41,719 bases of DNA from positions 1 to 41,719 of the forward strand of contig JAGIBE010000236.1 in assembly GCA_017744495.1 (NCBI GenBank). Direction: 5' to 3'. This stretch comes from Caulobacter sp. (GTDB lineage Bacteria > Pseudomonadota > Alphaproteobacteria > Caulobacterales > Caulobacteraceae). The translations under genes were made by a program, and so were the position numbers. Shown piece after piece: positions 11,183 to 12,283 of this stretch; position 1 is the first letter of the stretch, and each line of letters begins with the position of its first letter. Below the pieces are notes generated by a model. That model was not told the DNA's origin and ran no database searches. It worked only from the letters and a program-made list of their open reading frames with translations.

Positions 11183-11839
11183 TTGACCGGGGAAGACGAG
11201 ACCGCGACGGCCACGCCGGACGGTCACAAGCCACTGTCGCACAGTCCAAAATCGGCCAAGAAGCGGGACGCTATTCTTCGGGCGGCCACCGAGATCATCA
11301 ATGTAAAGGGCTATGCCCTGGCTACCATGACCGAGATCGCGGCGGCGCTCGATCTGCGGGACGCGGCGCTCTACTATTACTTCCCCAACAAGCAGGCCCT
11401 GGTCTTCGCTTGTCACCAGAGCTCGCTGGAGCGGTTCGAGCGGGTGCTGAGTGAGACGAACCAGGATGGCGGGGCCGGCTTCGAAAGACTGGAACGGTTT
11501 CTGCGGGCCCTACTGGTGGAATCCGCCCGCAACGGCCCCCTGCTCTACTTCGGCGATCGGTCCTATCTGGACGAGGATCAGCGCCACGCGATCGCCGCCT
11601 GCAGCGAGCACCTGACCCGCCGCCTGGAGCGGATCATCCAGGACGGCATGGACGACGGCTCGATTACGCCTTGCGAGTCGTCACTGGTCGTCCAGTTGCT
11701 GCTCGGCATGCTGATCTGGTTGGCCAAATGGGTTCCGACCGTCGAGGGCGTGACGGTGGATCGGCTGATGGCCGCGATCGGCGTCGTAGGCTTGCGAGGG
11801 CTCAAGAACGACGCTGCGGGCCTGCACGGCCGCGCCTAG
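11183..11839 (+). CDS. TetR/AcrR family transcriptional regulator
   Basis: This 218-residue regulator has an N-terminal helix-turn-helix: the AAALDLRDAALYYYFPNKQAL segment is the typical TetR recognition helix followed by YYYFPNK. The ligand-binding half has hydrophobic helices and ends near LRGLKNDAAG. The start is probably TTG at 11183, because AGGGGAG (11167-11173) lies nine bases before it. An in-frame TTG at 11111 lacks such a site. The N-terminal 25 residues are Thr/Ala-rich and polar. It is divergent from the TonB-dependent receptor, so it most likely controls that gene in response to an imported compound. Its TAG stop lies in a CTAG shared with the convergent small gene. Confidence 0.88.
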   Translation: MTGEDETATATPDGHKPLSHSPKSAKKRDAILRAATEIINVKGYALATMTEIAAALDLRDAALYYYFPNKQALVFACHQSSLERFERVLSETNQDGGAGFERLERFLRALLVESARNGPLLYFGDRSYLDEDQRHAIAACSEHLTRRLERIIQDGMDDGSITPCESSLVVQLLLGMLIWLAKWVPTVEGVTVDRLMAAIGVVGLRGLKNDAAGLHGRA

Positions 11840-12060
11840 GCGCCCAGCAGCGCCTCGTAGCGGGCGACGTTCTCGGCCAGCCACTGACGCAGCCGCTCTA
11901 GTTCGCCGATATGGACGTGGGTCTCGTCCTGCACTTCGCCTTCGTCCGTGCGCGAGCCGACCTGCAGCTTGCCGCTGCGCAGGGCCTCCAGGCGCTGGTC
12001 GAGGGCCTCCTGCTCGGCCTTGTGTCGCTCGACGACGCGATTGATTTCGGCCTTGTCCAT
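11836..12060 (-). CDS. Conserved-looking 74-residue hypothetical protein
   Basis: This small soluble protein starts MDKAEINRVVERHKAEQEAL and ends GELERLRQWLAENVARYEAL. Charged helix-forming segments (2-30 and 50-72) flank a polar middle (VGSRTDEGEVQDETHVHI). There is no signal peptide or membrane segment. I do not recognise the family; its heptad-like Leu/Ala spacing could make a helical hairpin or coiled coil. The ATG at 12060 has GGAG eight bases upstream and is preferred over the Arg-rich extension to 12105. It lies downstream of the small-RNA candidate on the same strand, and its TAG stop shares CTAG (11836-11839) with the end of tetR. Confidence 0.6.
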   Translation of the reverse strand: MDKAEINRVVERHKAEQEALDQRLEALRSGKLQVGSRTDEGEVQDETHVHIGELERLRQWLAENVARYEALLGA

Positions 12061-12166
12061 ACTCGATCTCCACTGGGGCCGTCGACGACGTCGAAGCGGC
12101 TTCACGCTTGAAGATCGAGTTTAAGGCCGTGCCTGGCTCGCGTCGATCCAAGGCCCCAAAACCGGC

Positions 12167-12195
12167 AAAAAAATGCCCGGCGCGAAGGCCGGGCA
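12167..12195 (-). terminator. Intrinsic terminator of the small-RNA candidate
   Basis: An eight-pair perfect stem, TGCCCGGC (12195-12188 read leftward) with GCCGGGCA (12181-12174), encloses a six-base loop and is followed by TTTTTTT (12173-12167). No annotated gene ends just upstream on this strand, which is why a short transcript is proposed. Confidence 0.8.
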
Positions 12196-12251
12196 GTCAT
12201 TAGGGAGGAAACGCCCAGGAAGGGCAGGAGCGCCAAGGGCGGCTCCACGCG
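12167..12251 (-). ncRNA. Candidate structured small RNA with anti-Shine-Dalgarno linker
   Basis: Read leftward from about 12251, the segment has three hairpins in a row and no credible reading frame. Hairpin 1 is GGAGC (12246-12242) with GCTCC (12231-12227), plus an inner GCC/GGC. Hairpin 2 is GCCC (12225-12222), loop TTCCT, GGGC (12216-12213). Then comes an unpaired linker with CCTCCC (12208-12203), complementary to a ribosome-binding site. Last is a perfect terminator stem with a seven-T run (12173-12167). Compact size, a C-rich loop, an exposed CCUCCC and an intrinsic terminator together are the layout of alphaproteobacterial trans-acting sRNAs that mask ribosome-binding sites. It could instead be an attenuated leader of the 74-residue gene 107 bases downstream. 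The 5-prime end is inferred from a predicted promoter. Confidence 0.55.
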
Positions 12252-12255
12252 TTGA

Positions 12256-12283
12256 TAACTAGTGCGCCGGGGCGGTCGATCAA
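12256..12283 (-). promoter_or_regulatory. Possible promoter of the small-RNA candidate
   Basis: Read leftward, TTGATC (12283-12278), a 16-base gap and TAGTTA (12261-12256) resemble a sigma70-type promoter and would start RNA near 12249. The match to TTGACA/TATAAT is moderate. Confidence 0.35.

Follow-up and report, generated by a model that had tools for sequence, protein, structure and literature searches.

The question raised by this locus is whether the short non-coding stretch beside a 74-residue gene, in a 41,719-nucleotide piece of Caulobacter DNA (the whole of which is here called the window), encodes a small RNA in its own right and, if so, of which kind. An earlier note on the same DNA had described two hairpins, a linker with CCUCCC and an eight-pair terminator followed by seven U, and all of these are indeed present on the minus strand. 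The transcription start near 12248 is predicted from the promoter layout. The features are as follows.

12256 to 12283, minus strand: promoter-like block, conserved, with a −35-like TTGATC (12283-12278), a 16-nt spacer and a −10-like TAGTTA (12261-12256)
12167 to 12248, minus strand: sRNA gene of about 82 nt, ends predicted; member of αr8 (RF00519), conservation 0.98 over ten genomes
12246 to 12227, minus strand: hairpin 1 (the 5′ hairpin), from the fold, GGAGC/GCUCC plus an inner GCC/GGC, with one bulge
12212 to 12226, minus strand: hairpin 2, from the fold, UGCCC/GGGCG, the GGGCG being invariant in 72 of 72 aligned rows
12211 to 12196, minus strand: linker between hairpin 2 and the terminator, containing UUUCCUCCCU
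12202 to 12211, minus strand: seed UUUCCUCCCU, an anti-Shine-Dalgarno 10-mer with a predicted unpaired probability of 0.89-1.00
12195 to 12167, minus strand: intrinsic terminator, kept in ten genomes, with a stem at 12195-12174 (8 pairs, 7 of them G-C) and seven U at 12173-12167
12118 to 12151, minus strand: a promoter-like block belonging to the 74-residue gene itself, TTGGATCGACG ... CTTAAACT, between terminator and gene
11836 to 12060, minus strand: 74-residue gene, the downstream neighbour, with no Pfam family and taken to lie outside the sRNA unit

Taken singly, the window sequence makes a weak case for the element, with fold and terminator statistics near chance. The fold z-score of the RNA is −1.87, 10 of 200 shuffles folding equally well; two terminator-like sites are observed against 2.2 expected, and a scan for the strict sigma-70-like consensus found no promoter. 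The comparative evidence is strong. A 100-base query from the window matched 10 of 75 genomes of the genus at 140-181 bits, and the next match among those listed, at 103 bits, belongs to a different locus class (class I, see below). Over these ten genomes, whose loci we call class V, the columns of the RNA are conserved at 0.98 on average and those of TTGATC and of TAGTTA at 0.917, against 0.738 in the 16-nt spacer, 0.70 over 50 nt upstream and 0.65 over 60 nt downstream, and the terminator, both hairpins and the seed are intact in the whole alignment. Since the hexamers are conserved and the strict scan is empty, the promoter is described here as a conserved block, not as a consensus match.

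The family of the RNA is a named one. The Rfam model RF00519 (suhB, described as mmgR) matches positions 12160-12232 of the minus strand with 50.8 bits (cut-off 41, E = 1.1e-7, cmscan) over its whole length, 1-77 of 77, and the element scores above the cut-off of no other RNA family. The traits of αr8 RNAs are found here as well, namely a predicted single-stranded UUUCCUCCCU right after hairpin 2, itself a weak hairpin, and a Rho-independent terminator with an 8-pair stem and seven U. The window genome holds three RF00519 copies over the cut-off, and at least 55 of the 61 genomes searched have a match (under stricter filters and among the matches listed). The element is an αr8 member and, with a probability of roughly 85%, an sRNA with its own promoter, which is predicted to cover the ribosome-binding sites of metabolic mRNAs by means of UUUCCUCCCU. 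Blocking of ribosome-binding sites by an exposed CCUCCC, much as the earlier note described for alphaproteobacterial sRNAs with CCUCC, is the mode of action of the characterised relative SisA (PMC12559287). The window seed is identical to that of SisA, which, together with the RF00519 score, supports the proposal of a translation-repressing sRNA, the repression being predicted by analogy. A covariance and conservation check of the kind suggested in that note showed that CCUCCC is conserved and that the letters of stem 1 vary with pairing retained; the note had missed the named family, the siblings in the same genome and the matching sponge RNA. The family is a known one, the mode of action is most likely that of SisA, and what is new would be a sibling class at its own locus. 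In the literature searched on αr8 and its siblings no study names the class V locus; a 2016 phylogenetic survey of αr8, to which PMC12559287 and PMC7143759 refer, may include it.

To place the window copy among its siblings, we have taken the listed same-genus matches to RF00519 and six same-order loci, leaving out other same-order matches. Of the resulting 124 loci, 20 fall short of the cut-off and 104 exceed it, 98 of the latter from the genus or the window genome and 6 from the order. Classes were defined by common flanking frames, and the 104 over-threshold loci fall into five main ones. Class I adjoins an N-formylglutamate amidohydrolase gene (Pfam checked at one locus) and has 35 genus and 6 order loci; class II has 23 loci; class III consists of groups of 14 and 5 loci, joined because their upstream and RNA sequences match. 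The remainder comprises class IV with 8 loci, class V with 7, one group of 3 and 3 single loci. Siblings other than class V adjoin other genes. The neighbour of sisA is the N-formylglutamate amidohydrolase gene (PMC12559287); no amidohydrolase lies beside the window copy, whose neighbours encode the 74-residue protein, a TetR-type protein and an alpha/beta hydrolase. Classes I, II, III and IV occur together in eight genomes, and we take this set for the likely SisA-D, the comparison with published neighbours covering sisA.

Some of these loci have peculiarities of their own. Class II loci (L003 and others) are without the 5′ hairpin and carry a promoter-like GTTGTC ... GCTATA block near the RNA, and their seed ends in CA or UA instead of CU. 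Two loci, L046 (G002, contig C2) and L103 (G026), are single over-cut-off αr8 copies without common neighbours, the former on the smaller of its genome's two contigs.

In a tree built from 89 columns, a branch (100/100) separates class V from the rest and another (97/86) separates I and V jointly, with many other forks unresolved. Class IV was found in 8 and class V in 7 sampled genomes and the two together in none, an absence that is provisional and applies to the matches listed. Because a tree grouping IV with V is not rejected (p 0.346), separate origins of these classes are not established. Class V is a fifth sibling class, not found in the sampled Caulobacter genomes with the SisA-D-like set of four; it adds a class that the four of the model strain may not cover. 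More speculatively, and we hold this to be rather doubtful, two Caulobacter lineages may each have gained a different fourth sibling (IV or V) under a common and nearly invariant sponge, with class V as a sisA-lineage copy under a new promoter. If so, selection would act on the number of siblings against sponge dose, each sibling being wired to its own signal.

Three other explanations of the locus have to be weighed. The window RNA might be a surplus copy, silent or in decay, that has persisted by chance while its siblings carry out the function, and both the occurrence of class V in only 10 of the 75 genus genomes and the seed common to all siblings would agree with this. A decaying copy is, however, hard to reconcile with the ten genomes, in which the RNA (0.98) and the promoter hexamers (0.92) are better conserved than spacer and flanks (0.65-0.74), or with the lack of damage to terminator, hairpins and seed, and we consider it improbable. 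A SorX-type sRNA (RF02784) shares the layout of hairpin, CCUCCC linker and terminator, and its model matches the window RNA from end to end; yet the score of 25.8 bits is below that model's cut-off of 46.6, whereas RF00519 exceeds its own. On these covariance-model scores membership of SorX was rejected, and it is the least probable of the alternatives, hardly to be entertained.

The earlier note had itself offered another reading, in which the element is a transcription-attenuating leader acting in cis on the 74-residue gene. Element and gene are on the same strand, the terminator lies 98 nt ahead of the start codon in the window, and the neighbourhood is retained throughout class V, the gene being downstream of the RNA in 10 of 10 genomes. 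The gap between them varies, however: five genomes have 66, 91, 92, 98 and 98 nt, the remaining five 399-455 nt. In all ten the gene has its own promoter-like block past the terminator. This block reads TTGATCGACG in nine genomes and TTGGATCGACG in the window genome, followed by a second hexamer that is TAAACT or TAAGCT in nine and TACACT in G035; we call it promoter-like because its spacing of about 19-20 nt (hand count) is long. In G012, moreover, a 57% identical gene lies on contig C101 and the three RF00519 matches on other contigs, and the siblings elsewhere adjoin other genes. The attenuator reading was rejected on the variable gap (66-455 nt), the separate block and the unlinked gene of G012, and is very unlikely, if slightly less so than SorX membership.

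Two further observations concern the 74-residue gene and its surroundings. Five named loci encode relatives of the protein (96, 95, 92, 91 and 76% identity), all of them in Caulobacter. The five long-gap genomes (L152, L153, L155, L156 and L157) have a conserved frame of 57-59 residues between sRNA and gene, secreted-looking, with a signal-like start (MTFAKLFGTA or a close variant) and a tail rich in His and Arg; it is absent from the window.

The siblings show which parts of the RNA are held constant. The stretch GGGCGUUUCCUCCC is invariant in 72 aligned distinct rows, an alignment made without class II and without the 20 under-threshold loci. Every one of the 104 over-threshold loci contains GGGCGUUUCCUCC, and 77 of them the full UUUCCUCCCU; the other 27 end the seed in CA (17), UA (8) or CC (2), so the 10-mer varies at its last two letters and is not invariant within the family. 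Most of the 5′ hairpin falls beyond the Rfam model. An ungapped stem of at least 5 pairs (G-U allowed) beside hairpin 2 was found in 67 of 68 distinct upstream stretches; controls with single letters shuffled averaged 27.1 and never exceeded 41 of the 68, a statistic that ignores kinship among the sequences. An alignment-free script was used for this count because in the MAFFT alignment A2 the class V 5′ arm is, by eye, one column off register. The paired arms differ among siblings: GGAGC/GCUCC in class V, and GAGGCG/CGCCUC, GAAGCG/CGCUUC, GACGCC/GGCGUC and GCAGC/GCUGC in others. As exceptions, the longest stem is another, more distant one in L074, L077 and L094, and L075 has only 4 pairs. This hairpin, for the most part absent from that model, belongs to the conserved parts of the RNA, with letters that change and pairing that persists.

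Motifs resembling αr8 were also seen behind protein-coding genes. At L142 and L188 (contigs C133 and C215 of the window genome), UUCCUCCC lies 7-45 nt behind TonB-dependent receptor genes and is followed immediately by a terminator hairpin and U-run; L137 and L187 have a similar but less clean arrangement, and the Pfam barrel of TonB-dependent receptors is present at all four. These elements could be 3′-UTR-derived RNAs with the αr8 anti-Shine-Dalgarno motif. At L117, L129 and L136 (G033, G021 and G035), under-threshold RF00519 matches directly follow Hsp20-family genes, Pfam HSP20 being found in all three; with UCUCCCCUC and a terminator, they resemble αr8 within the 3′ UTR of a heat-shock gene. 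Others, at L120, L132 and L133 (G006, G003 and G001), lie behind chemoreceptor genes with CCUCCC and a terminator; Pfam MCPsignal was found in all three of these frames, two of which end in DWEEF, and L119, L122, L128 and L131 join the group by common flanks.

For the targets of the RNA, the window genome was searched with patterns complementary to the seed. There are 14 sites for AGGGAGGAA against 3 for the reversed pattern: two are αr8 genes read on the other strand, seven lie 3-6 nt before the start codons of frames of at least 70 residues, and a further one lies 10 nt ahead of a doubtful 122-residue frame. The pattern GGGAGGAAA has 18 sites, again against 3 for its reverse, including two αr8 genes, one CrfA-like RNA and five sites 2-5 nt before frames of at least 278 residues. 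Together the seven and five start-proximal sites make up ten genes. The nine that were domain-scanned encode an enoyl-CoA hydratase, an acyl-CoA dehydrogenase, a 3-hydroxyacyl-CoA dehydrogenase, a TonB-receptor plug, a glycosyl hydrolase 3, an MFS protein, a GMC oxidoreductase, a P450 and a flavin-monooxygenase-like protein. Of the four sites for the full complement AGGGAGGAAA, two are αr8 genes; the others are the ribosome-binding sites of the enoyl-CoA hydratase and of the acyl-CoA dehydrogenase.

Among the candidates tested, the acyl-CoA dehydrogenase mRNA is the best conserved. In 9 of the 10 class V genomes its leader offers 11 pairs in a row, counting G-U, and in the remaining one 9; in nine other genomes the longest run anywhere in the stretch examined is 6-9, with two paralogues left out and one genome unscored. 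The hydratase was rejected as a conserved target, its 11-nt pairing being found in 2 of 10 class V and 0 of 7 other genomes (17 of 20 genomes scored). As the class V genomes are related and the seed is common to the siblings, the dehydrogenase pairing does not single out the window copy; and since seed complements also overlap ordinary Shine-Dalgarno sequences, we assign no target to this copy specifically.

A partner that might hold the RNA in check is encoded in the same genome. In C. crescentus the carbon-starvation RNA CrfA sponges SisA through a pairing site at G49-C63, of which G49-G54 were replaced in an experiment (PMC12559287). Contig C110 of the window genome has one GGGAGGAAA within a hairpin GGCGUUUC-GGGGAG-GAAACGCC; a terminator comes after the hairpin and TTGACA lies upstream. 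The GGGGAG falls at about positions 48-53 (hand count from a guessed start). Because this layout and position resemble those of CrfA, we take the C110 RNA for CrfA, and an orthologue is likely, the identification being by layout only. It offers the window RNA 15 contiguous Watson-Crick pairs, so that complementarity to the G/A-rich loop of CrfA, a trait of the SisA-D circuit, is found here too if the layout identifies that RNA correctly. Such a CrfA-like RNA was found in 73 of the 75 genus genomes, and among the 30 of these loci that were compared the loop does not differ. The window locus gives concrete predictions, in non-model species, of the way in which one sponge could serve several siblings.

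Taken together, the element is most probably a genuine sRNA gene, from a family already known, and one that works as SisA does, by an ordinary mechanism. The RNA would be transcribed from its own promoter, would act on Hfq by analogy with SisA, and would pair through UUUCCUCCCU with the ribosome-binding sites of metabolic mRNAs, repressing their translation; the CrfA-like RNA would soak it up through the 15 pairs, and its targets would be shared with the siblings. The current view of how such RNAs work is left unchanged.

Among known systems, SorX (RF02784) is like the window RNA in layout and CCUCCC linker and unlike it in score, 25.8 bits against the cut-off of 46.6. The 'cuckoo' CCUCC RNAs also carry an exposed anti-Shine-Dalgarno motif in a short terminated RNA and belong to a family other than αr8. 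The same motif and build are found in AbcR (αr15), again another family (PMC7143759). MmgR of Sinorhizobium meliloti shares the Rfam model, seed and size class, but is a single copy tied to nitrogen and carbon status and PHB (PMC7143759), whereas the window copy is one of three. The closest comparison is with the four C. crescentus members SisA-D, which carry UUUCCUCCCU and differ in promoters and expression according to the authors, SisA repressing many mRNAs (PMC12559287); binding to Hfq was seen by EMSA for SisA (R0014) and R0157 (PMC11005374). The window locus differs from SisA-D in the letters of its 5′ stem and in a locus class not seen in the sampled four-class genomes, and it is like them in family, in UUUCCUCCCU after a hairpin, in the Rho-independent terminator, in complementarity to CrfA and in an own promoter for each sibling, here a predicted one (PMC12559287).
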